This document shows, piece by piece, positions 22,904 to 59,332 of a stretch of 62,421 nt of DNA. Source of the DNA: Burkholderiales bacterium (GTDB lineage Bacteria > Pseudomonadota > Gammaproteobacteria > Burkholderiales > Burkholderiaceae_C); assembly GCA_028872015.1 (NCBI GenBank), contig JAGWLO010000014.1:1-62421 (forward strand), written 5' to 3'. The notes beneath the pieces are model-generated. The model was not told where the DNA came from and did not search any database. It saw only the letters and a program-made list of their open reading frames with translations. How positions within the stretch are numbered: the first letter of the stretch is position 1; every line of letters begins with the position of its first letter. The position numbers and the translations under genes are program-made.

Positions 22904-22921
22904 TGTCATCTTACGCAGACA
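22904..22921. promoter_or_regulatory. PpsR/CrtJ site 1 at the bchC promoter
   Basis: TGTCATCTTACGCAGACA matches TGT-N12-ACA. It overlaps the -10 box TAAGAT (22908-22913, minus strand). It lies exactly 8 bp from a second site, the spacing known for cooperative CrtJ binding at Rhodobacter bchC. Confidence 0.9.
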
Positions 22922-22935
22922 TTGATCAGTGTCAA
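22908..22935 (-). promoter_or_regulatory. Sigma-70-type promoter of bchC
   Basis: Reading the minus strand: -35 TTGACA (22930-22935), 16-bp spacer, -10 TAAGAT (22908-22913). Predicted start of transcription is near 22901, about 75 nt before the bchC ATG. Both boxes are covered by PpsR-type palindromes. The spacer also holds an FNR-like half-matched site, TTGATCAGTGTCAA (22922-22935). Confidence 0.8.
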
Positions 22936-22947
22936 GCTGCGTTTACA
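22930..22947. promoter_or_regulatory. PpsR/CrtJ site 2 at the bchC promoter
   Basis: TGTCAAGCTGCGTTTACA, a TGT-N12-ACA palindrome that covers the -35 box TTGACA. Paired with the site at 22904-22921 across 8 bp. Confidence 0.9.
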
Positions 22948-34909: not shown

Positions 34910-35935
34910 TCAGGCGCCGAACAGTTCGACCGCGGCGCGCTCGACGCGCGCGCTGGCGTCGGTCTCGTCCAGCGGGTCGCGCCGCAGGCGGTGGCGCAGA
35001 GCCGGCCCGGCCACGCGACGCAGCTGCGCATCCCCGACGCCGGCGGCCCCGTCCAGCGCGGCCAGCGCGCGCGCGGCGCGGATCAGCGTCAGCTCGCCGC
35101 GCAGGCCGTCGGTGCCCAGCGCCAGGCACAACTCGGCGGCGCGGGTGAGCGCAGCGTCGCCCACCTCGACCGCGGGCAGTCGCTTGCGCGCGCCCACGAT
35201 GCGCCGGCGCAAGCGCTCCTCGTCGGCCGCCCATTGCTCGCGGAAGGCGAGCGGGTCGCGCTCGTAGGCGTCGCGGCGCTTGATGACTTCCACCCGCTGC
35301 GCGATCTCGCCCGGCGTGCGCACCTCCACCGCCAGGCCGAAGCGGTCGAGCAGCTGCGGCCGCAACTCGCCCTCCTCGGGGTTGCCGCTGCCGACCAGCA
35401 CGAAGCGCGCCGGGTGGCGCACGCTCAGGCCCTCGCGCTCGACCACGTTCTCGCCCGAGGCCGCCACGTCGATGAGCAGATCGACCAGGTGGTCCTCGAG
35501 CAGGTTGACCTCGTCGACGTACAGGAAGCCGCGGTTGGCGCGCGCCAGCAGGCCGGGCTCGAAGGCCTTGATGCCCTGCGTCAGCGCGCGCTCGAGGTCG
35601 AGCGCGCCGACCACGCGGTCTTCGGTCGCGCCCAGCGGCAGGTCGACCACCGGCACCGGCACGGCGTGGCTGCGCGGGCGGCTGCCGGTCTTCAGGCGGG
35701 CGCAGTCTTCGCAGCGCGGCTGCGCATCGTCGGGGTCGCAGCCGTAGCGGCAGCCGACCACGGCCTTCATCGGCGGCAGCAGCGCGGCCAGCGCGCGCAC
35801 GGCGGTGGACTTGCCGGTGCCGCGGTCGCCGAAGACGAGCACGCCGCCGATGGCGGGCTCGACGGCGGCGATCAGCATCGCGAGCTTCATCTCGTCCTGG
35901 CCGACGATGGCGGCAAAGGGAAACGCAGGGGCCAT
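34910..35935 (-). CDS. bchI: Magnesium chelatase ATPase subunit I
   Basis: AAA+ motor of Mg-chelatase, 341 aa, the normal length. Walker A FGDRGTGKST is near residue 35 and Walker B FLYVDEVNLLEDH near residue 135. The start MAPAFPFAAIVGQDEMK at 35935 matches the family; the longer frame (to 36220) overlaps the HiPIP promoter region. It is divergent from the HiPIP gene with a PpsR-type palindrome between. Confidence 0.96.
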   Translation of the reverse strand: MAPAFPFAAIVGQDEMKLAMLIAAVEPAIGGVLVFGDRGTGKSTAVRALAALLPPMKAVVGCRYGCDPDDAQPRCEDCARLKTGSRPRSHAVPVPVVDLPLGATEDRVVGALDLERALTQGIKAFEPGLLARANRGFLYVDEVNLLEDHLVDLLIDVAASGENVVEREGLSVRHPARFVLVGSGNPEEGELRPQLLDRFGLAVEVRTPGEIAQRVEVIKRRDAYERDPLAFREQWAADEERLRRRIVGARKRLPAVEVGDAALTRAAELCLALGTDGLRGELTLIRAARALAALDGAAGVGDAQLRRVAGPALRHRLRRDPLDETDASARVERAAVELFGA

Positions 35936-36004
35936 GGCGGACGCGGTGGAGGGGGTGCAGGGGGCGCGCGTGCGGGGATGCGGGCGCGCGGGGCGCGCGC
36001 AGTA

Positions 36005-36022
36005 TGTCATGCAGACTGGACA
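36005..36022. promoter_or_regulatory. PpsR/CrtJ site between bchI and the HiPIP gene
   Basis: TGTCATGCAGACTGGACA fits TGT-N12-ACA with TGTC/GACA arms. It lies 70 bp upstream of bchI and 140 bp upstream of the HiPIP start, so it could act on either or both. Confidence 0.75.
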
Positions 36023-36161
36023 CTCGGCGCCGGTCGGAAACCCGCTGCCGGAACACGGCGTAACGCTTCGCCCGGCGTGCCCTGTGCACCGGCCGGGCGG
36101 GGCCCGCGTTAGCCGGCCAACCTGCGCTCGCAGGCTCGCCAACATCCCAAGGAGTACGAAC

Positions 36162-36479
36162 ATGGGCACCGCTTCCCGCCGAGTCTTCATGCTGCAGGTG
36201 ACCGCCGCCGGCACCGCCATGGCTGCCGTCGCAGCCGCCCGCGCCGCCGCCGTCGCGCTGGACCCGAAAGATCCCCAGGCCGTGGCACTGGGCTACGTCA
36301 CCGACACCCGCCAGGCCAACCAGGCCAAGTACCCCAACCACACGGTGGCGCAGAAGTGCGGCACCTGCCAGCTGTTCGGCGGCGCGCCTGGGGCTGCCTC
36401 GGGACCGTGCCCCATCTATGCCGGCAAGCTGGTGCAGGCCGGCGGCTGGTGCTCGTCCTGGATCAAGAAGGCGGCCTGA
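36162..36479 (+). CDS. hip: High-potential iron-sulfur protein (HiPIP)
   Basis: Soluble periplasmic one-electron carrier with a [4Fe-4S] cluster, 105 aa. The signal peptide has a twin-arginine motif (SRRVFM) and an Ala-rich hydrophobic core, so it is exported folded by Tat. The four cluster cysteines are in KCGTCQLFGG, GPCPIY and GGWCSSWIKKA. A strong AAGGAG ribosome site precedes the ATG, and a small inverted repeat (CCTGC/GCAGG, 36121-36134) lies in the leader. In Rubrivivax, HiPIP is known to reduce the reaction-centre cytochrome; location inside the cluster supports that here. Confidence 0.95.
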   Translation: MGTASRRVFMLQVTAAGTAMAAVAAARAAAVALDPKDPQAVALGYVTDTRQANQAKYPNHTVAQKCGTCQLFGGAPGAASGPCPIYAGKLVQAGGWCSSWIKKAA

Positions 36480-36490
36480 CGCCTTGCCGA

Positions 36491-36511
36491 GCCGGGCCCT
36501 CGCGGCCCGGC
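36491..36511. terminator. Terminator-like hairpin after the HiPIP gene
   Basis: Perfect 8-bp stem GCCGGGCC/GGCCCGGC with a 5-nt loop, 11 bp after the HiPIP stop and 2 bp before the stop of the convergent sensor gene. Followed by only a short T pair. Probably serves both genes. Confidence 0.6.
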
Positions 36512-36513
36512 CT

Positions 36514-38637
36514 TCAGGCGCTGCCGGCGCCGTCGATGAAACCACGCAACTGGTCGTAGAGCCGGGCGGCGCGGCGGGCCGAACGCTCCAGCGCCTGCAA
36601 TTGCGCCGCCGCCGGCTCGGGGTCGTGGTCGGCAATGTCCATCGCCGCCAGGCTGGCGTTGGTGAGGATGGTCGCGATCAGGTCCTCGGGCGCCTGGGCC
36701 TGGCGGCCCACGCCGGCACCGCGCAGTCGCTGCCCGGCCTGGGCCAGCGTGGCCTCGAGATGCTGGCGCGCCGCGTCGGCCTGGCGGCTGGCGGTCAGGT
36801 CGTCGAACAGCAGCACCAGGCCCAGCAGCTTGCCGTCGTCGGCCGGCACGGGCTCGGCGCGCACGCGCAGCAGCGCGCCGCCTTGGCGCAGCGCCAGCTC
36901 GCCGCGCCACGGGCGGCGCTCGGCCCGCAGCTGGCCGATCAGGCGCTGCACCCGCAGCGGCTCGGCAAAGCAGTGCGCCAGCCAGGCCAGGTCGCCTCCG
37001 GCGCCGGGCTCGGCGCCCGATGCGCCGACGGGTTCCCGCCCCGGCTGCTCGGCGACGAGGCGCAGGAAGGCCGGATTGGCGTGGAAGGTGCGGCCGTCGC
37101 CGTCGGCCACCACCATCGGCTCGCGCGAGTCGCCCACCGCGCTGCGGGCCTGCGCGGCCTGGCGCTCGGCGATGAGCCAGCGCACGGCGTCCACCTGGGC
37201 GGCGATGTCGGTCAGGGCCGTGGCAACCTGGCGCGCCAGGCCCAGGTCGGCCGCACTCCAGGGCGCCTGCGCGACGCCGGCCCCGGGGGCTTCGCGCAGC
37301 CAGGCCAGCACCTCGCCGCGCGCGGTCGACAGGCGCACTGCGAGCACGCCGCAGGCGGCCGGCGGCGAGGCGCCGGCGCCGCTGTCGCGGAGGCCGACGA
37401 GCTCGCCGTTGAACAGCCCATCGACAAACGGCCGGTCGGCGATCCAGGCGCTCAGCTGCTGCAGTGGCAGGCCGGCGGGCGTGCAACCTGCGGCGAGGCA
37501 GGCGCCGTCGTGGAGCAGCAGCGCACCGCTGGCGGCCAGCGGCTGCAGCAGGGCCTGCGTGTCGCGCATCAGTGCCGGGCGCCAGTCGCCTTCGGCCGCG
37601 GTGGCCTCGACCAAGCGCCGCGACAACTGCCGCACTTGAAGGCCGAGCTGGGCGCGGGCGAAATGCTCGAGCGCGGCGATGCGGGTGGTGGCCGCCTCGG
37701 CCAGCAGCGCCGCCGCGGCGCGCAGTGCGGGGGCCGGCCGGCATGGCAGCGCGTGGTGGCAGACGACCAGCCCCCACAGGCGGCCGTCGCGCACCAGCGA
37801 AAGCCCCAGCGCGGCCCGGACGCCGCGCCGGCGCAGCCGCTGCAGGTGGCTCGGCGGCAGGCTGCGCAGGCTGCAGGTGGACAGGTCGAGCGGCTGCGCA
37901 TCGGCCCGCGCCGGCACCAGGGGCGAGGGCGCGCTCTCGCTATCGACCAACAGCCGCAGCCGGGTGCGCAGGTACAGCGCACGCACCGCCGGCGGAATCT
38001 CGGCGGCGGCGTGGAACGGGGCCAGGGGCACCGGCTGCGCCCGCAGCGCCGGGGCACAGGCCTCGGCCAGGACGAGGCTGCCGCCGGCGCCGTCGGCGGC
38101 AGCCTCGTCGCCGAAGCGGCACACCATCACGCGGTCGTAGCCGAGCAGGGCCTGCAGGTGCAGGGCCAGGGCCTGGGCCACCGCGCGGAGGTCGGCCGCC
38201 TCGCTCAGGGCCTGGGTGGCGTGGCCGAGCTGCTGGGTGAGCCGGGTGTCGGTGACCGCGGCGGCCCGGGGTTCGAGCTCGAGCAGCAGCAGTCCGTCCG
38301 GATTGCGGTGCAGCGTGCCTTCGAGCGCCAGTTCACCGCTCGCCGCCGGCAGCCGGCACCGCAGCAGGGCGCTGTCGGCGCCGGCGGCGCTGGCCAGATG
38401 CTCGCGCACCCGCGACTCCAGGGTGCCGCCCAGCGCCTGGCCCACAGGCTGCCCGAGCCATGCGGCCAGCGGACGCCCGAGCAGGGGCTCCCAGTTGGCG
38501 CTGGCCTGCGTGATGCGCAGGCCGGGCTCCTGCAGGGCCAAAAGCAGGCCCTGCGCCTGTACCGATCCCGGTGGCCGCAAGGCTTCATGGATGTCGGCTG
38601 GGGGAGCGGCCGACCCGAGGTGCGAACTGCTGTGCAC
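36514..38637 (-). CDS. Bacteriophytochrome-like sensor without chromophore Cys or kinase domain
   Basis: Protein of 707 aa with phytochrome-type order: PAS (about 20-130), GAF (about 150-320), PHY (about 330-500), then a PAS domain (about 510-640) and a short helical tail. Phytochrome landmarks are PGSVQAQGLLLAL, YDRVMVCRF, a PASDIP-like site reading HAAAEIPPAVRALY, and LWGLVVCHH. The residue aligned with the biliverdin-binding Cys is Asp15 and no other Cys is near. The C-terminal 55 residues look like a lone dimerisation helix pair; no ATP-binding kinase domain follows. It starts with GTG. It may sense redox or bind a pigment non-covalently. Confidence 0.8.
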   Translation of the reverse strand: MHSSSHLGSAAPPADIHEALRPPGSVQAQGLLLALQEPGLRITQASANWEPLLGRPLAAWLGQPVGQALGGTLESRVREHLASAAGADSALLRCRLPAASGELALEGTLHRNPDGLLLLELEPRAAAVTDTRLTQQLGHATQALSEAADLRAVAQALALHLQALLGYDRVMVCRFGDEAAADGAGGSLVLAEACAPALRAQPVPLAPFHAAAEIPPAVRALYLRTRLRLLVDSESAPSPLVPARADAQPLDLSTCSLRSLPPSHLQRLRRRGVRAALGLSLVRDGRLWGLVVCHHALPCRPAPALRAAAALLAEAATTRIAALEHFARAQLGLQVRQLSRRLVEATAAEGDWRPALMRDTQALLQPLAASGALLLHDGACLAAGCTPAGLPLQQLSAWIADRPFVDGLFNGELVGLRDSGAGASPPAACGVLAVRLSTARGEVLAWLREAPGAGVAQAPWSAADLGLARQVATALTDIAAQVDAVRWLIAERQAAQARSAVGDSREPMVVADGDGRTFHANPAFLRLVAEQPGREPVGASGAEPGAGGDLAWLAHCFAEPLRVQRLIGQLRAERRPWRGELALRQGGALLRVRAEPVPADDGKLLGLVLLFDDLTASRQADAARQHLEATLAQAGQRLRGAGVGRQAQAPEDLIATILTNASLAAMDIADHDPEPAAAQLQALERSARRAARLYDQLRGFIDGAGSA

Positions 38638-38812
38638 GCTGGCGCTGCGATGGTTACTACGGACTGCGGACTGCTGGCGGTGACGCCTCGGGCGCGTGGC
38701 CGGGGCGCGGAACGCGCTGGCCGCACTGGATCAGGTCGTCTGCAGTTTGGCAAGCGGGTTCCCCCGCGGGGCGGGCGGCGCGTGCGCTGCCCGGCCGCCT
38801 TCGCCTGCCGCC

Positions 38813-39082
38813 TCAGCGGCCGGCGGCGCGCACCCGCTGCCACCAATCCAGTGCATGGGCCGCGCCGGCACACAGCAGCCACAGCGGCAACCAGGGGCCG
38901 CCTGCAGCCAGGTCGCGCAGGGCCAGGGTCAGGAACAGACCGGCCGCGGCGCCCGGCAGCATCCGCCGCATCAGGGGGCGCCAGCGTCCGTGCACCGAGC
39001 CGATCAAGAGGGCCAGCATCTCGAGCGTGATGACCGCCAGCACGATGGCGATCAGCAGGGCCGGGTCGGCGAGGGCGGGCAC
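38813..39082 (-). CDS. Small membrane protein of unknown function (bchGP operon)
   Basis: Not recognised. From the GTG at 39082 it is 89 aa with about three hydrophobic segments (LLIAIVLAVITLEMLALLIG; GAAAGLFLTLALRDL; WLPLWLLCAGAAHALDWW) and a basic loop (RWRPLMRR). It lies 16 bp after bchP on the same strand, so it is probably the third gene of bchG-bchP. A longer frame would overlap bchP. Size and topology recall other small accessory proteins of photosynthetic clusters, but no function is assigned. Confidence 0.6.
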   Translation of the reverse strand: MPALADPALLIAIVLAVITLEMLALLIGSVHGRWRPLMRRMLPGAAAGLFLTLALRDLAAGGPWLPLWLLCAGAAHALDWWQRVRAAGR

Positions 39083-39098
39083 GGCTGCGGGCGGGCGC

Positions 39099-40322
39099 TC
39101 AGACCCGGGCCAGGCCGAGCAGGTGCGCCATGTCCTTGCAGAAGATGCGCGCATGCGCCAGCGGCCGCGTGCGCACCAGGCGCTTGTTCATGTAGGCGTC
39201 GAAGGTGAGCTGCTGCACGTCGCGGTCGCGGCAGATGCTGACGAAGCGCTCGCGCCGGCGGTCGTTGCGGTACCAGAAGCGTTGCATCAGCCCCAACACC
39301 CAGAACACGCGGCCGTGCGCGCGCATGAACTGCCGGCGCGCGCCGGCCAGGGCGCGGGCGTCGCCGGTGCGCAGGTACTCGGCCGCGGCGTCGGCCGCCA
39401 GCCGGCCGCCGGCCATGGCGTAGTAGATGCCTTCGCCCGAGGCCGGCGCCACCACGCCGGCGGCGTCGCCGGCCAGCACGACGTCGCGGCCGTTGTCCCA
39501 GCGCGGCAGCGGCTTCATGGGGATCGGCGCGCCTTCGCGACGCAGCGTCTCCAGGCCCGCCAGCTGGGCCGCGTCGCGCAGCCGGCCGACCGCGCCGCGC
39601 AGCGAGAAGCCCCGGTCGGCGCTGCCGGTGCCGATGCTCAGCGTGTCGCCGTGCGGGAACACCCAGCCGTAGAAGTCGGGCGAGAGCTCGCCGCGGTAGT
39701 ACACGTCGCAGCGGGCGCCGTCGTAGCCGGCCGGCGGCACGGCCGGTGCGCGCACGATCTCGTGGTAGGCGAAGACGTAGCGCGCCCGGTCGGCACCCGG
39801 CACCGCCTGGCGCGCCACTTCCGAGCGGGCGCCGTCGGCCCCGACGACGCAGCGCGTGCGCACGCTGCGCTGGGCCGCAATGCCGGCCGCGCCGGCCTGG
39901 CGCACGCTGCGGCCTTCGTAGTGGACGACGGTGCAGCCATCGACATCGCGCGACAGCCGCGTGAAGACGCCGGTTTCGCGCATCGCGCCATGGCCGGCGG
40001 CACGCTGGCGCAGCCACTCGTCGAAGCGATCGCGGTCGACCATGCCGACGTAGCCGCCCTCGATCGGGATGTCCACGCGGCGGTCCACCGGCGAGACCAT
40101 GCGCGCCGAGCGCGCGCGCGCCACCAGCAGATGCTCGGGGATGGCGAAGTCCTGGATCAGCCGGGGCGGGATCGCGCCGCCGCAGGGCTTGGTGCGGCCG
40201 GCACGATCGAGCAGCAGCACGCTGTGGCCGCGGCGCGCCAGGTCGTCGGCCGCGGTGGCGCCCGACGGGCCCCCGCCGATGACGACGACGTCGTATTCCG
40301 CGCGGGGGGTCGGCTGGTTCAT
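39099..40322 (-). CDS. bchP: Geranylgeranyl diphosphate/bacteriochlorophyll reductase BchP
   Basis: FAD-dependent reductase of 407 aa that hydrogenates the geranylgeranyl tail of bacteriochlorophyll to phytyl. Dinucleotide motif VVVIGGGPSGATAADDLARRG is near residue 12, then KPCGGAIPPRLI, and the second flavin motif VVLAGDAAGVVAPASGEGI near residue 290. Start MNQPTPRAEYD; the longer upstream frame runs into bchG. It lies 91 bp after bchG. Confidence 0.95.
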   Translation of the reverse strand: MNQPTPRAEYDVVVIGGGPSGATAADDLARRGHSVLLLDRAGRTKPCGGAIPPRLIQDFAIPEHLLVARARSARMVSPVDRRVDIPIEGGYVGMVDRDRFDEWLRQRAAGHGAMRETGVFTRLSRDVDGCTVVHYEGRSVRQAGAAGIAAQRSVRTRCVVGADGARSEVARQAVPGADRARYVFAYHEIVRAPAVPPAGYDGARCDVYYRGELSPDFYGWVFPHGDTLSIGTGSADRGFSLRGAVGRLRDAAQLAGLETLRREGAPIPMKPLPRWDNGRDVVLAGDAAGVVAPASGEGIYYAMAGGRLAADAAAEYLRTGDARALAGARRQFMRAHGRVFWVLGLMQRFWYRNDRRRERFVSICRDRDVQQLTFDAYMNKRLVRTRPLAHARIFCKDMAHLLGLARV

Positions 40323-40413
40323 GGCGTGTCCTCGGGGTGATGCGAAACGGGATGCACGGGCGGATGCCCGGGTGGGCACGCAGGCAGAGGCACCGGGGGG
40401 GCGGCGGGCCGCA

Positions 40414-41295
40414 TCACGACGCTGCAAGCCCGCGCAGCGCGAAGGCGCTGACCAGCATGCCGCTCACGAACAGCGGCACGCCCAGCCCGCTGTACCACAG
40501 CGCCCAGCGCCGCGGGTCGCGCCGCAGGCGCCGCATCATCAGTACCTGGGCCGCCAGCAGGGCCGCCACGGCCAGCGCGTGCAGCGGCCGCTGCCAGGCC
40601 AGCAGCAGGGCCGCCACGGCCGCCTGCGGCAGGGCCATGATCCAGCAGGCGGCGCGCGCGGCGCCGTCCACGCCCAGGCGCACCGGCAGCGAGCCCACGC
40701 CCAGCTGGCGGTCGCCCGCGATCGACTTGAAGTCGTTCAGCGTCATGATGCCGTGTGCGCCGGTGCTGTACAGCCCGGCCAGCGCCAGCGAGCGCAGGCC
40801 GGGCATCTCGCCGCCGGCCATCACCGCGGCGCCGGTGATCCACGCCAGGCCTTCGTAGCAAAGCCCGCAGGCGGCGTTGCCCCACCAGCCATTGCGCTTC
40901 AGCCGCAGCGGCGGCGCGCTGTAGGCCCAGGCCAGCAGCAGGCCCAGGGCGGCGGCGGCGAAGCCCCACGGCCCGAGCGCCACCGCCACCGCCAGCGACA
41001 GCGCGGTCCAGACCAGCGCCACGTACAGGCCCCAGTGCCCCGGCATGCGGCCGCTGGGGATCGGGCGCTGCGGCTCGTTGATGGCATCGACGTGGCGATC
41101 GAACCAGTCGTTGACGGCCTGGCTGGTGGCGCACACCAGCGGGCCGGCCAGCAGCACGCCCACGCCGATCAGCAGCAGCCGGCCCTGCACAGGCAGGCCC
41201 GAGGCCACGGCGCCGCAGCCGAAGGCCCACATCGGCGGGAACCAGGTGATCGGTTTCAGGAGTTCGGCGATTGCCGAAGGTGCCGGTAGTGCCAC
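40414..41295 (-). CDS. bchG: Bacteriochlorophyll synthase BchG
   Basis: Membrane prenyltransferase of the UbiA family esterifying bacteriochlorophyllide a with geranylgeranyl diphosphate. It has about nine membrane spans; Asp-rich motifs are AVNDWFDRHVDAINEP (near residue 65) and LNDFKSIAGDR (near residue 185). There is no ATG before the conserved ELLKPITWFPPMWAF, so GTG 41295 (293 aa) or TTG 41301 must start it. Both lie very near the predicted transcription start. First gene of bchG-bchP-small ORF. Confidence 0.93.
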   Translation of the reverse strand: MALPAPSAIAELLKPITWFPPMWAFGCGAVASGLPVQGRLLLIGVGVLLAGPLVCATSQAVNDWFDRHVDAINEPQRPIPSGRMPGHWGLYVALVWTALSLAVAVALGPWGFAAAALGLLLAWAYSAPPLRLKRNGWWGNAACGLCYEGLAWITGAAVMAGGEMPGLRSLALAGLYSTGAHGIMTLNDFKSIAGDRQLGVGSLPVRLGVDGAARAACWIMALPQAAVAALLLAWQRPLHALAVAALLAAQVLMMRRLRRDPRRWALWYSGLGVPLFVSGMLVSAFALRGLAAS

Positions 41296-41324
41296 GAGCA
41301 AATACTGCCCGTGACAGTTTAAAG

Positions 41325-41342
41325 TGTCAATTAAAACTTACA
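41325..41342. promoter_or_regulatory. PpsR/CrtJ site upstream of bchG
   Basis: TGTCAATTAAAACTTACA, TGT-N12-ACA. Its first six bases are the reverse complement of a -35 box TTGACA pointing at bchG (weak -10 CAGTAT 17 bp further). A degenerate partner with only the ACA arm lies 8 bp away at 41299-41316. The site begins 17 bp after the ppsR stop. Confidence 0.85.
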
Positions 41343-41359: not shown

Positions 41360-42826
41360 TCAGCGGTCGTCGTCGGCGGCCTGCTCGGCCAGCCCGAAGC
41401 GGCGCAGCTTCACGTACAGGCTCTGCCGCGACAGGCCCAGCAGCAGCGCCGCCGAGGCGCGGTTGTCGCCCGTCATCTCCAGCGCGGTCTCGATGCACAG
41501 CTGCTCGATCAGGTCGGTCGTCTCGGAGACGATCTCCTTCAGCGGCACGTTGCCCACCAGCTCGGCCAGGTCGTCGGCGGAGCGCGCGATCGGCGCATTG
41601 ACCGCGGGCGCGGAGCGCAGCCGGCGCTCGATGTTGCGGATGGCGAAGGCGAGCACCGGTTCGTCGGCCGGCGGCAGCGCCGAGGCCGCGATCTCGACCT
41701 CGGTGCTGGCGCCATACTCGCCGCGCACCGCGGTCACGAACAGGCCCACCGAGCCGCGCTGGCGCAGGTTGGTGATCAGCACGCCGAGCTCGACGCCGGT
41801 GCGGCCGACCCAGCGGTCGAGCATCTGGCCCCGCACCTGGTCTTCGGCGCTGGCCTGCGCCAGCGCCACGAAGGCGCGGTTGGCGGTGAGCACGCGGCCC
41901 TGGGCGTCGGTGAACACGAGCGCGTCGCTGGCGTTCTGCACGAAGGCGCGCAGCGTCGATTCGGCCTGGCTGACCGTCATGCCGCCACGGCTGGCCGCGG
42001 TGGTCGGCGCCGGGCCTGCCACCGGGGTCAGTCGCACCAGCACGAAGGCGTTGTCGTCCTGCCGGAAGACCGAGGCCGAGGCCTGGACCTCGGTGGCATG
42101 GTCGGCGCAGAGCGCGCGCACCGGCTCGCGGCTGCCGATCGAGCGGGCAGCCGCCAGCAGCGACTGCACGGCCTCGGCCGAGCGGGTGTCGAACAGCGAG
42201 GGCAGGGCGCTGCCCACCAGCTTGCCGCGGATGTCGCCGCACAGCAGCTGTGCCGCCGGGTTGGCCTCGAGCACCTTCTGCGTCAGCCCGTCGACGACCA
42301 GCACCGCCTCGCCCGAGGTCTGGAACAGGTGTCGGTAGCGCGTCTCGGCCTCGCGGAAGCGCCAGTAGTCGCGCTCCATCGCCTGCTGCGACTCGATCAG
42401 CCGCTTCTGCAGGGCCACGGTGGCGCGCAGGTTGCGCCCGAAGACCACGATGCAGCCCTTGCGGCCGCGCCCTCCGCCGGGCTTGGCGTCGACGCGCACG
42501 GCGGCATACAGCAGCGGCAGATCGTCGCCGTCTTCGGTGGGGTGGTTGATCTGGCGCCAGCGCGACTCGCCGCTGGCCGAGGCGGCGTCGCGCAGCAGCG
42601 CCTCGACCTTCTGCCGGCTCTCGACCGTGACGGTCTGGATCCAGGGGCGGCCGATCCACTGCGCCGCCTGGGCCGAGGGCAGGTCGGGGTCCTGGACCAC
42701 CAGATCGACGATGGTGCCCTGGTCGTCGAGCACGAGCGCGATGTCGCTGGCGGCTTCGATCAGCTGGGACGCGCCCCGGCCATCGATCTCGCCGAGCAGC
42801 GGCTTGCGCGCAGTGTTCGCCGTCAT
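41360..42826 (-). CDS. ppsR: Photosynthesis transcriptional regulator PpsR/CrtJ
   Basis: Redox-responsive repressor of bch, crt and puc genes under oxygen; 488 aa. An N-terminal PAS-like domain (about 15-130), a glutamine-rich helix (VALQKRLIESQQAMERDYWRFREAE), two PAS domains (about 155-270 and 285-400) and a Fis-type helix-turn-helix (DNRASAALLLGLSRQSLYVKLRR, about 454-476) appear in family order. Cys444, just before the HTH, matches the redox Cys of CrtJ. Start MTANTARK at 42826; the longer frame is not conserved. It follows aerR by 91 bp. Confidence 0.95.
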   Translation of the reverse strand: MTANTARKPLLGEIDGRGASQLIEAASDIALVLDDQGTIVDLVVQDPDLPSAQAAQWIGRPWIQTVTVESRQKVEALLRDAASASGESRWRQINHPTEDGDDLPLLYAAVRVDAKPGGGRGRKGCIVVFGRNLRATVALQKRLIESQQAMERDYWRFREAETRYRHLFQTSGEAVLVVDGLTQKVLEANPAAQLLCGDIRGKLVGSALPSLFDTRSAEAVQSLLAAARSIGSREPVRALCADHATEVQASASVFRQDDNAFVLVRLTPVAGPAPTTAASRGGMTVSQAESTLRAFVQNASDALVFTDAQGRVLTANRAFVALAQASAEDQVRGQMLDRWVGRTGVELGVLITNLRQRGSVGLFVTAVRGEYGASTEVEIAASALPPADEPVLAFAIRNIERRLRSAPAVNAPIARSADDLAELVGNVPLKEIVSETTDLIEQLCIETALEMTGDNRASAALLLGLSRQSLYVKLRRFGLAEQAADDDR

Positions 42827-42917
42827 GGCGGGCCGGCAAGAGGCGGGTGGCGGACACTCACGAGGAAGTCCTGGTCGGCATGGCGCAGTTGAAAACGGCT
42901 GATGACGGGGGCCGGTG

Positions 42918-43907
42918 TCAGACTCTCGCGACAATCCGGCCCGCAATCATAGCCTCGGCCAGCACCGGCGCCTGGCGCGCATCCTGCGCCGTGCCGTCGG
43001 CGCCCACGCCGGCCACCCACTCGGGGTGCAGCAGGAACAGCGGCCCGCCCACCAGCACGACGAGGCCGCCGTTGCGGCTGGCCTGCCGCACGCTGGTGAT
43101 GGCGGTCTGCAGCCAGGGCAGGCGCAGCTCGCTGCCGATGGAGAAGCCGACCACGTCGAACCACTCGACGCGCACGCGCGCCGTCGGGTCGCGCGCCGCG
43201 CCGCCGGGGCCGCCGTGGATCTCCCAGCCGGCGCGGCGGAAGAATTCGGCCACGATGGACAGGCCGAAGCTGTGCTGCTCGTCGGGGGGCTGCGTCAGCA
43301 TGGCGCGGCGGCCGCCCACCGGGTGCTCGATCTCGGCGCCGAAGGCGGGGCTGAGCTCGCGCAGCAGCCGCTGCAGCCGCCCCAGGCCCACGGTGACGGT
43401 GCAGAAATCGCAGCGGTCCTCTTCCCACAGCTCGCCCAGGCGGCGCGCGGCGGCGGCGAAGATGCCCAGGTACAGCGACTCGACGCTGGCGCCGCGCAGC
43501 CGCAGGCCGTCCACGGCCAGCGCGAGCGCGACTTCGCCGTCATCGACGAGGCAGGCCGTGAAGGTCTCGATCTCGGCCGCACTGGGCGGCGCGAGTCCGG
43601 GAGCCAGGGCGCGCGGCGGCGCGCGGTGCGACCGGGCCAGGCGCGGAATCACCTCGTGCTCCAGGGCCCGCACCAGCTGCCCGACCTGGGACGACGATGC
43701 GGCGCGGCTGCCATCGACCAGTGACCAGGGGGTTCCGGGTTGCCCGTCGGGCCAGCCCGCGGCATCCACCTGAAGCGCGCCCGCGGCGCCCTCGCTCTCA
43801 CAACGTCCCGCCATCCCCATCTCCTGCAACAGCGCCTCGCTCGGCGGGGGTCGCTGTACGACTGCAAGATCCTGGGCACTGCTGCATCGGGCCGCATCCG
43901 CACGCAT
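42918..43907 (-). CDS. aerR: AerR/PpaA cobalamin-binding antirepressor
   Basis: Photosensory antirepressor that binds vitamin B12 and modulates PpsR/CrtJ; 329 aa from ATG 43907. The helical cap motif LGELWEEDRCDFCTVTVGLGRL (about 158-179) and the B12-binding SCHIC-type domain are clear; the cobalt-ligand candidate His212 is in DEQHSFGLSIVAEFF. The N-terminal 70 residues are variable. In-frame starts also exist at TTG 43934 and at Met30 or Met32, so long and short forms as in Rhodobacter are possible. Gene order aerR then ppsR is the usual one. Confidence 0.9.
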   Translation of the reverse strand: MRADAARCSSAQDLAVVQRPPPSEALLQEMGMAGRCESEGAAGALQVDAAGWPDGQPGTPWSLVDGSRAASSSQVGQLVRALEHEVIPRLARSHRAPPRALAPGLAPPSAAEIETFTACLVDDGEVALALAVDGLRLRGASVESLYLGIFAAAARRLGELWEEDRCDFCTVTVGLGRLQRLLRELSPAFGAEIEHPVGGRRAMLTQPPDEQHSFGLSIVAEFFRRAGWEIHGGPGGAARDPTARVRVEWFDVVGFSIGSELRLPWLQTAITSVRQASRNGGLVVLVGGPLFLLHPEWVAGVGADGTAQDARQAPVLAEAMIAGRIVARV

Positions 43908-44213
43908 GGCTGTGCGCTCAGAAGGCAGGGGCAAACAGCGCTCCAGCTCCGGCGGCCTGCGCGGCCCGAAGGCTCGCGGTCAACCACTGGCACCGGTTGT
44001 ACGCTGCGGTCGCGCCGGAGTCAAAGCCGGCGCCTCGGTGTTTCCACTGAAGCGCAGAACGCGAACCGCCGGAGGTGCTCCGGCACCCGCCGTCGGCGGG
44101 CGCCGACCCGCGCACCGAGCCCGTGTGGGGAGCTGACATGCCGCCTCCTTGCGCCAGGGCGTGCGCACGCTGCGCCGCACCGTGGAACGCATGATCGGCG
44201 GGGCCCGATCGAC
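43908..44213. other. Intergenic region between aerR and bchF with two tandem hairpins
   Basis: No convincing gene; the open frames here lack family features. It holds two adjacent hairpins with 6-bp stems and 3-nt loops: CCGGAG-GTG-CTCCGG (44069-44083) and CCCGCC-GTC-GGCGGG (44086-44100). They lie upstream of the bchF promoter and would be in an aerR leader if aerR starts near the PpsR-like sites. Confidence 0.6.
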
Positions 44214-57750: not shown

Positions 57751-58527
57751 ATGACCTGGCAACTGCTGCTGCCTTCGGTCTTCACGCTGCTGCTGTGGTG
57801 GGCCAGCACCGGGCTCATCCTGTACATCGACGGCCTGCCGCGCCACACCTTCAAGTGGACGCTGTCGGGCGCCGGCGGGCTGTGGCTGCTGGCCATGTGG
57901 CAGCTGCGGGCCACGGCCGGCGATGCCTCGGTGCGGGGTGCCTACATCGCCTTCTGCGCTGCCCTGGGCGTCTGGGCCTGGCACGAGATGGCGCTGCTGA
58001 TGGGCCTGGTCACGGGCCCGCGCCGCACCGCCTGCCCGCCGGGCGCGCGCGGCTGGTCGCGCGTGCGCTACGCCATCGAGGCCGTGCTCTACCACGAGCT
58101 GGCGCTGCTGCTGCAGTTCGGCCTGCTGGGGCTGATGCTGCACGACGCGGCCAACCAGGTCGGCCTGTGCAGCTTCGCCATCCTGTACGTGATGCGCCTG
58201 TCGGCCAAGCTCAACGTCTTTCTCGGCGTGCGCAACCTCAACGAGAAGTGGCTGCCGCCCAACCTGCGCTACCTGCACAGCTACTTTCGCCAGCGTGCGG
58301 CCAACAGCCTGTTTCCGCTCTCGGTGATCTGCTCCACCGTGCTCGCGGGCATGGCCTGGCAGGCCGCGCTCGACCCCGCCAGCGACGCCTTCCACGCCGC
58401 GGCCGGCAGCTTCGCGGCCACCCTGTTCACGCTGGCGACGCTGGAGCACGGTCTGATGGTGCTGCCGCTGTCGGCCGATGCGCTGTGGGGCTGGGCCTGG
58501 CGTTCGCGCGCGCGGCCGGCTGAATAG
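57751..58527 (+). CDS. puhE: Photosynthetic complex assembly protein PuhE
   Basis: Membrane protein of 258 aa with six or seven hydrophobic segments. Family landmarks are LLLWWASTGLILYIDGLPRHTFKW and LYVMRLSAKLNVFLGVRNLNEKWLP. Affects bacteriochlorophyll synthesis or reaction-centre assembly in Rhodobacter. Last gene of the bchF-puhE operon, 25 bp after acsF. Confidence 0.92.
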   Translation: MTWQLLLPSVFTLLLWWASTGLILYIDGLPRHTFKWTLSGAGGLWLLAMWQLRATAGDASVRGAYIAFCAALGVWAWHEMALLMGLVTGPRRTACPPGARGWSRVRYAIEAVLYHELALLLQFGLLGLMLHDAANQVGLCSFAILYVMRLSAKLNVFLGVRNLNEKWLPPNLRYLHSYFRQRAANSLFPLSVICSTVLAGMAWQAALDPASDAFHAAAGSFAATLFTLATLEHGLMVLPLSADALWGWAWRSRARPAE

Positions 58528-58588
58528 GAGCCAGCGGGCACCCCGCCACCGGCAGGCCGGCGGCGGCGCGCTGCTAAGCTTGCGGCCC

Positions 58589-59332
58589 ATGTTCACCGGC
58601 ATCGTCCAGGGCATCGCGAGCGTGGCCGAGCTCGGCGACCGGCCCGGCCTGCGCAGCTTCAGGCTCGTCTTTCCACCCGGCTTCGCGGCCGGCCTGGCCA
58701 TCGGGGCCAGCGTCGCCGTGGACGGCGTCTGTCTCACCGTGACCGCGCTGCACGGCTCCGATGCCGCCGGCTTCGACGTCATGCAGCAGTCGCTGGCGCT
58801 GACCACGCTGGCCGGGCTGCGGCCGGGCAGCCGTGTCAACGTCGAGCGCGCCGCGCGCGATGGCGCCGAGATCGGCGGGCACCCCCTCTCGGGCCATGTC
58901 GACGTGATGGGCCGGCTGGCCGATGTGCGCCGGCCCGAGAACAACCACGTGCTGCGCATCGCGCTGCCCGCGCCGTGGATGCGCTACGTCTTCGCCAAGG
59001 GCTACATCGCCGTCAACGGCGCCAGCCTGACGGTGGCGCAGGCCGAACGCGGGCCCGGCGGCAGCGGCTGGTTCGAGGTCTGGCTGATTCCCGAGACCCT
59101 GCGCATGACCACCTTCGGCGACCTGGCCGTGGGCGACCTGCTCAACATCGAGATCGAGCGCCAGACGCAGGTCTTCGTCGACACCGTGCGCGAGGCCCTC
59201 GACGAGCGGCTGGGGCCGCTGCGGCCCGCGCTGGAGGCGCTGCTGCGCACGCACGGCGCCAGCCTGGACGAGCTGGCGCGGCCGCTGCCCGGGGCGCTGG
59301 CCGCCGCGGCGCCCTCGCGCGACCCGGCGTGA
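58589..59332 (+). CDS. ribE: Riboflavin synthase alpha chain
   Basis: Converts two 6,7-dimethyl-8-ribityllumazine molecules to riboflavin; 247 aa with two lumazine-binding barrel repeats. First repeat MFTGIVQGIASV...VDGVCLTVTAL, second HPLSGHVDVMGRL...AVNGASLTVAQAE. The C-terminal 35 residues extend beyond the usual end. It is 61 bp after puhE on the same strand, so read-through from the photosynthesis operon is possible. The sequence is nearer the Escherichia coli type than the second-copy type. Confidence 0.9.
   Translation: MFTGIVQGIASVAELGDRPGLRSFRLVFPPGFAAGLAIGASVAVDGVCLTVTALHGSDAAGFDVMQQSLALTTLAGLRPGSRVNVERAARDGAEIGGHPLSGHVDVMGRLADVRRPENNHVLRIALPAPWMRYVFAKGYIAVNGASLTVAQAERGPGGSGWFEVWLIPETLRMTTFGDLAVGDLLNIEIERQTQVFVDTVREALDERLGPLRPALEALLRTHGASLDELARPLPGALAAAAPSRDPA

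Follow-up and report, generated by a model that had tools for sequence, protein, structure and literature searches.

Phytochromes are usually regarded as light switches. The photosynthesis gene cluster in a stretch of 62,421 nucleotides from a Burkholderiales bacterium (the whole of which we call the window) includes a gene for a phytochrome-like protein with an aspartate in place of the biliverdin-binding cysteine, and this raises the question of what such a protein may still do among pigment genes.

Gene and domain layout

The gene and its putative output parts are as follows.

36514..38637, minus strand: phytochrome-like gene, apparently blinded (707 aa, GTG start; ORF, Pfam and PDB sequence search)
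36784..37125, minus strand: second PAS domain, residues 505-618 (Pfam PAS_4; of 20 near-invariant residues, the group of seven described below keeps 85%)
36529..36795, minus strand: predicted HOS-like output helices 615-639, 649-671 and 676-703 (AlphaFold model; 93% of 18 near-invariant residues kept)
36628..36660, minus strand: NASLAAMDIAD, the signature of HOS-type betaproteobacterial phytochromes (sequence comparison)

Pfam places PAS_2 at residues 18-123, GAF at 149-318, PHY at 336-449 (profile positions 2-114 of 183 only) and PAS_4 at 505-618, and finds neither HisKA nor HATPase. The PAS-GAF-PHY fold is present, and in the AlphaFold model (pLDDT 82.4) the chain ends in a helical hairpin at 649-671 and 676-703. 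The domain order PAS-GAF-PHY-PAS, closed by two C-terminal helices instead of a kinase, is that of the type-3, RpBphP1-like phytochromes; the initial annotation had already described this order, with a terminal PAS, a short helical pair and no kinase, and Pfam and the model bear it out. A frameshift or a wrong start as the explanation is ruled out by the open frame and by the 68%-identical gene of genome G455, in which a GTG at the same place can serve as start.

The best PDB match by sequence is RpBphP1 of Rhodopseudomonas palustris (4GW9, 298.3 bits, E 1.7e-87), aligned over the sensor and the second PAS. Like the window protein, RpBphP1 is built as PAS-GAF-PHY-PAS-HOS with no kinase; entry 4GW9 is without HOS, so the comparison stops short of the HOS sequences. 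In the list of structural matches, where most entries lie close together in Z, RpBphP1 ranks only 16th and 20th, under other phytochromes, which as far as the model goes may count against kinship with RpBphP1. The NCBIfam BphP equivalog gives the window protein 172.7 bits against a cut-off of 1040, a comparison with the family cut-off only and not with Cys-bearing type-3 proteins.

A group of seven within one genus

Family, order and phylum searches covered about 400 genomes each, drawn from larger groups, with two candidates scored per genome; in the genus search at most 14 were scored. At least seven Cys-less HOS-type genes were found, all within one genus, presumably Rubrivivax to judge by the named hosts, and more are possible because few candidates per genome were scored. 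Besides the window, the hosts are Rubrivivax rivuli KYPY4 (G390), AAP65, apparently a strain (G195), a Rubrivivax MAG (G415) and the MAGs REEB217 (G455), T7_bin-616 (G461) and Loclat_bin-09320 (G463). Presence in the genus is patchy, with a match at E 1e-20 in 30 of 81 genomes.

The searches at family and genus level supplied 50 HOS-type proteins for comparison, seven Cys-less and 43 Cys-bearing; a fragment in G407 (L128) and a partial G074 contig were left out. The cysteine and the PHY tongue are both absent in 7/7 and both present in 43/43. A further 79 loci, which overlap the genomes of the main search and are not independent, include six Cys-less ones, all without the tongue motif PRxSF, and the remaining readable ones have both features; in partial or frame-broken loci (e.g., L169, L171, L175, L177, L196, L208, L213, L215, and likewise L216, L220, L224, L228-L230 and L232) the cysteine or tongue is unreadable. 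The order and phylum loci read contained no additional Cys-less HOS-type protein, the N-terminus of the kinase-type L270 and L290 lying outside the reading; direct reading confirmed the cysteine in L249, L250, L251, L253, L275, L281, L283 and L299.

Orthologues, for which the initial annotation had suggested a search, thus occur in many betaproteobacterial photosynthesis clusters and are mostly Cys-bearing. Those of Rubrivivax, Piscinibacter, Rhizobacter, Ideonella, Roseateles and others belong to the same family and carry the NASLAAMDIAD-type signature, but unlike the window protein they have the pocket Cys, Tyr and Asp as well as the tongue, and in most cases a haem oxygenase gene next door. 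More distant HOS-type phytochromes (L247-L251 and L253) belong to another family (f30). In that group NAQLAAMEI or NAQLAALEI replaces NASLAAMDI, and haem oxygenase and PpsR genes are found in the locus.

Loss of the light-sensing parts

Three sites in the gene mark the lost parts.

38593..38595, minus strand: codon of Asp15, in the column of the biliverdin-binding Cys (alignment; Cys in 43/43 Cys-bearing homologues)
37756..38142, minus strand: eroded GAF chromophore pocket, residues 166-294 (alignment; DrBphP numbers assigned by motif)
37261..37293, minus strand: place where the PHY tongue has been deleted, residues 449-459 (Pfam, alignment and model, with Cys-bearing proteins as contrast)

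The DrBphP pocket numbers are those that we take to apply from the motifs, with the Phe203 column the least sure. In these terms the window protein has C173 for Tyr176, E213 for Asp207, P261 for Ser257, R267 for Tyr263 and R271 for Met267, and retains H264, H294, R228, R258 and Y222. The alignment columns confirm the earlier statement that Asp15 replaces the biliverdin Cys and Glu213 the Asp of the PASDIP motif. Attachment of a chromophore through Cys173, at the Tyr176 position, is ruled out as a trait of the group, a cysteine being there in only 2/7.

A point absent from the initial annotation is the deletion of the tongue with its PRxSF motif. Between the columns of the two flanking Trp residues lie 13 residues in the window protein and 10-15 in the group of seven, against 45-61 in the 43 Cys-bearing homologues. 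Pfam PHY matches span profile positions 2-114 to 2-122 of 183 in 6/6 Cys-less proteins scanned (L032 was outside the scan) and 2-180 in 3/3 Cys-bearing ones. In the AlphaFold model of the window protein, strand 443-449 runs through a short loop into helix 462-489. The model of the Cys-bearing protein of G466 (L129; pLDDT 81.2) has residues 456-501 at this place, and because 461-492 fall below pLDDT 50 we regard its tongue as present in sequence and poorly modelled. The tongue-less photosensory module of DrBphP (PDB 8bor) is presumably a laboratory construct of a light-sensing phytochrome, unlike the window protein.

It is the tongue (466-476) that changes its fold when RpBphP1 is illuminated (PMC6899989). 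In DrBphP a single Tyr263-to-Phe exchange is enough to break the coupling of tongue and chromophore and to increase activity in the dark (PMC9630206); the window protein has Arg in this column. By analogy this hints, and no more, that uncoupled sensors drift toward active output.

Haem oxygenase and second copies

Haem oxygenase (PF01126) shows no match anywhere in the window genome, which is listed as 100% complete, nor in G455 (83% complete) or G463 (90% complete), while matches occur in 28/30 genomes of a first batch (all except G000 and G094) and in 9/11 of a second. Within the fetched segments haem oxygenase is found at 0/7 Cys-less and 36/43 Cys-bearing loci (p 3.4e-5). These segments vary in length, with 1.3-11 kb downstream for the six fetched Cys-less genes, and some Cys-bearing ones stop at a contig end (e.g., L045), so that the seven misses among them are an upper bound; a haem oxygenase query from L115 served alongside PF01126, and the assignments at L040 and L043 rest on the PF01126 matches. 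In many Cys-bearing relatives haem oxygenase occupies the place where the window has another gene:

35805..36479, plus strand: HiPIP reading frame, converging on the phytochrome gene (PF01355 at residues 155-219)

The same HiPIP layout is seen in G466 (L129 3505-3819) next to a Cys-bearing phytochrome, with the haem oxygenase on another contig.

Four of the seven Cys-less genomes do have a haem oxygenase (G195, G390, G415 and G461). In G461 it adjoins a kinase-type phytochrome; in G195, G390 and G415 it lies beside a second, Cys-bearing copy, and G195 and G390 have an extra weak match of 28-30 bits. Such genomes would suit a Cys-less protein that acts as heterodimer partner and tunes a Cys-bearing copy through mixed HOS bundles. 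We consider this improbable, given that the window genome (3.8 Mb, listed contamination 3.16%) yields no second match to the window protein with all 29 candidates scored, and that G455, G461 and G463 (83% complete in G455, 90% in G463) show no second HOS-type copy among at most 14 candidates each.

Photoswitching by the known route should be impossible, because the cysteine, much of the pocket, the tongue and the partner haem oxygenase are gone or eroded. That the window protein is blind is strongly supported by this loss of sensor parts, as read from the sequence.

Retention of the output and selection

Retention was scored at positions conserved to 95% or more among the 43 Cys-bearing proteins, as the share of them that the seven keep. 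It rises from 0.37 in the pocket (15 positions) through 0.60 in PAS1 (14), 0.62 in GAF (64) and 0.70 in PHY (64) to 0.85 in PAS2 (20) and 0.93 in HOS (18). The Cys-bearing sisters L129, L131 and L133 keep 1.0 of both pocket and HOS, and five other Cys-bearing control sets 0.93-1.0 and 0.89-1.0. Ten kinase-type phytochromes show the opposite pattern, with 0.83 for the pocket and 0.16 for HOS, and we interpret the contrast to the Cys-less proteins as an indication that input and output are lost separately. Within GAF, loss is heavier at the 14 pocket positions than at the remaining 64 (Mann-Whitney p 0.0097), and the erosion differs between lineages of the seven.

All seven frames are free of stops, where neutral simulation gives 1.5-5.8 new stops per branch. 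For the window and G455 pair the absence of stops is unremarkable in a GC-rich neutral setting (P about 0.2 per branch). The dN/dS (NG86) of the G195 and G390 genes (L031/L032) is 0.227, with 0.12 in GAF and 0.15 in HOS, near the 0.182 of their Cys-bearing copies. The window and G455 genes have 0.518, above all six Cys-bearing pairs (0.06-0.32); constraint persists in GAF (0.31) and HOS (0.30) but has almost vanished from PHY (0.88), and the elevated overall and PHY values fit relaxed constraint.

The gene might accordingly be thought to be decaying, with little function left after light sensing was lost, and on its way out. The fast evolution (the L125 end branch measures 1.8 and 1.6 in two phytochrome trees), the high dN/dS of the window pair and the patchy presence in the genus are in line with this; yet decay would hardly be expected to leave seven open frames, a dN/dS in L031/L032 close to that of the paralogues from the same two genomes and 93% of the HOS residues, and we regard it as unlikely. 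The gene is likely, if not proven on such sequence data, to be functional.

Number of losses

The history of the Cys-less state differs with the genes consulted. In the first full-length phytochrome tree the seven form one clade (98/98), and again in the tree without kinase rows (92/92). The tree of the linked PpsR, BchG and BchP groups the window and G455 with the Cys-bearing G466 (100/100) and rejects the seven as one clade (dlnL 168, p-AU 8e-36). The phytochrome data are compatible with a grouping of window, G455 and G466 (p-AU 0.151). The best tree of the output module also places these three together, without support (33/0), and does not unite the seven, while a single clade of the seven is not rejected by the same data (p-AU 0.235).

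A single origin of the Cys-less state is disfavoured, as the linked-gene tree speaks against it, though the phytochrome's own trees group the seven. On these sequence comparisons the Cys-less state probably arose independently at least twice, the competing account being that the gene moved between lineages. The clustering of the seven in the phytochrome trees may stem from fast evolution of the eroded sensors, i.e., from long branches. We tentatively propose a scenario whose odds we put slightly below even: in a single genus of phototrophic betaproteobacteria, the phytochrome encoded in the photosynthesis cluster went blind in at least two parallel events, shedding Cys, pocket, tongue and haem oxygenase partner but keeping the PpsR-binding output each time, leaving a light-independent PpsR antagonist that would set photosynthesis genes by its dosage or by a new signal.

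Gene neighbourhood and PpsR

The position within a photosynthesis cluster beside ppsR and aerR, noted in the initial annotation, is corroborated by the gene context.

42918..43934, minus strand: aerR/ppaA-like gene with a B12-binding domain (PF02310; named from position and domain)
41360..42946, minus strand: ppsR, the presumed target (TIGR02040, 468.9 bits, cut-off 275.4)
41325..41342, strand not assigned: TGTN12ACA site resembling a PpsR box, between ppsR and bchG and preceding bchG-bchP-orf113-phytochrome (pattern scan)
40414..41301, minus strand: bchG, UbiA family (Pfam; named from position)
39099..40427, minus strand: bchP, FAD-binding reductase (Pfam; named from position; the true start may be further in)
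38813..39154, minus strand: orf113, a small ORF that separates bchP from the phytochrome gene (looks hydrophobic by eye; no family over cut-off)

Read along the minus strand, the genes are aerR, ppsR, bchG, bchP, orf113 and phytochrome, with three genes separating ppsR from the phytochrome gene. The listed frames overlap save for gaps of 58 bases before bchG and 175 bases before the phytochrome gene, and a promoter and terminator scan of 36380-39200 found none. By tblastn, orf113 has matches of 72% in L122, 57% in L129 and 40-42% in L040 and L043. All seven Cys-less genes sit behind bchG-bchP with ppsR and aerR upstream, and Cys-bearing proteins are found at the same bchP position in L038, L040, L042, L043, L129, L131 and L133. 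Inside the photosynthesis cluster, after a DUF3623 gene, the window also carries a lumazine-binding (riboflavin-synthase-type) gene at 58478-59332 (plus strand).

A closely similar TGTN12ACA site lies in the ppsR-bchG gap of G455 (L122) and G466 (L129), and unlike ones are present in L031 and L124; the stretches read in L032, L123, L125, L131 and L133 have none, and overall 5/10 loci have one. In the window the pattern occurs nine times against 3.36 expected, a number reached in one of 100 shuffles. Two close sites at 22904 and 22930 (22904-22947) mark a possible PpsR-controlled promoter elsewhere in the window.

In the window genome only ppsR passes the cut-off of the PpsR family; the next best match scores 40.7 bits. 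A divergent PpsR, 30-39% identical to that of the window, adjoins the Cys-bearing HOS-type gene in 29/43 loci (L035-L037, L039, L045, L047, L049-L059, L126, L127, L130 and L134-L142). These loci recall the bphP1-ppsR2 pair, in contrast to the window genome with its one PpsR over the cut-off, and because of this frequent pairing the window PpsR need not be the partner.

Proposed role

We consider it somewhat more probable than its opposite that the protein is a chromophore-free, PpsR-binding regulator descended from a type-3, RpBphP1-like bacteriophytochrome. The evidence at hand comprises the loss of sensor parts, the retention of output residues, the gene context and the linked-gene trees against one Cys-less clade; from it we infer PpsR binding, the direction of the effect, co-transcription and feedback, with PpsR suggested as the target by homology and position. 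In the type-3 phytochrome RpBphP1, far-red light activates the HOS helices that bind PpsR2, and no complex forms without HOS (PMC6899989). RpBphP1 governs photosynthesis genes through a PpsR, and we presume the same for the window protein. The initial annotation had suggested that the protein acts by contact, perhaps on PpsR; this part of its proposal appears probable by analogy, because RpBphP1, the closest solved relative by sequence, binds PpsR2 through HOS.

In the mechanism we propose, the retained PAS and two-helix HOS output module would most likely still contact the PpsR encoded upstream in the same gene run. The HOS helices would pair with the PpsR HTH as in RpBphP1 and hold PpsR off photosynthesis promoters, so that the protein would antagonise or partner PpsR regardless of light, at a level fixed by its own abundance or by some other input. 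Through the PpsR-box-like site ahead of bchG-bchP-orf113-phytochrome, PpsR may control its own antagonist. As a counterpoint, binding of HOS to PpsR2 needs the light-driven Pr state, and by this analogy a tongue-less protein might be locked off.

The redox or pigment sensing also envisaged in the initial annotation finds no support in these comparisons. None of the ten cysteines of the window protein is present in all seven (C94 and C293 occur in 6/7, and C173, C255 and C299 are common to the window and G455 only), and erosion has hit the pocket harder than the remainder of GAF, taking a different course from lineage to lineage. A sensor of another signal, be it redox, haem or a pigment intermediate, perceived through altered GAF or PAS pockets and relayed to PpsR, would be consistent with the pocket residues His264, His294, Arg228, Arg258 and Tyr222 kept in the window, with the Cys in place of Tyr176 in the window and G455, and with the persisting constraint on GAF (dN/dS 0.12 and 0.31). 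It is difficult to reconcile with the lack of a group-wide cysteine, the absence of both pocket His columns in L123 and L125 and the missing haem oxygenase match in the window genome, and we think it quite unlikely.

Relation to known systems

Compared with our preferred reading of a chromophore-free regulator that binds PpsR, the known systems each differ in some respect. RpBphP1 has biliverdin, a tongue (466-476) and switching by 760 nm light; the window protein is without the cysteine and the tongue, and its genome without haem oxygenase. A 'light to redox' bacteriophytochrome of Rhodopseudomonas, reportedly described by Vuillet in 2007, is said to be of the kinase type and to have moved from light sensing to another role; in the window protein, unlike there, the kinase is absent and the tongue lost, and the group has no common cysteine. 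RpBphP2 and RpBphP3 are required as proteins for LH4 under low light even though their ability to sense light quality is dispensable there (PMC6879726), an example of phytochrome action that does not depend on light; both nonetheless retain light-quality sensing and work through a kinase pathway, whereas the blindness of the window protein is encoded in its gene. LdaP and PpaA/AerR are PpsR antirepressors that act by protein contact, LdaP using FMN and PpaA needing B12 (PMC10890935), whereas the window protein is derived from a phytochrome and seemingly cofactor-free. A literature search, with subscription papers mostly outside its coverage, returned no recognised paper on Cys-less, tongue-less or Rubrivivax phytochromes.

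In this genus the parts that read light have been removed, apparently more than once, and the output that binds the repressor in RpBphP1 has been preserved. If confirmed, this would separate the two jobs of RpBphP1-type proteins, and the Cys-less members would serve as natural locked variants with which to ask which state of HOS acts on PpsR. Rubrivivax rivuli KYPY4 holds blinded and Cys-bearing copies in one named strain. For annotators it would mean, likewise if confirmed, that far-red control should not be taken for granted wherever a photosynthesis cluster contains a 'bacteriophytochrome'.
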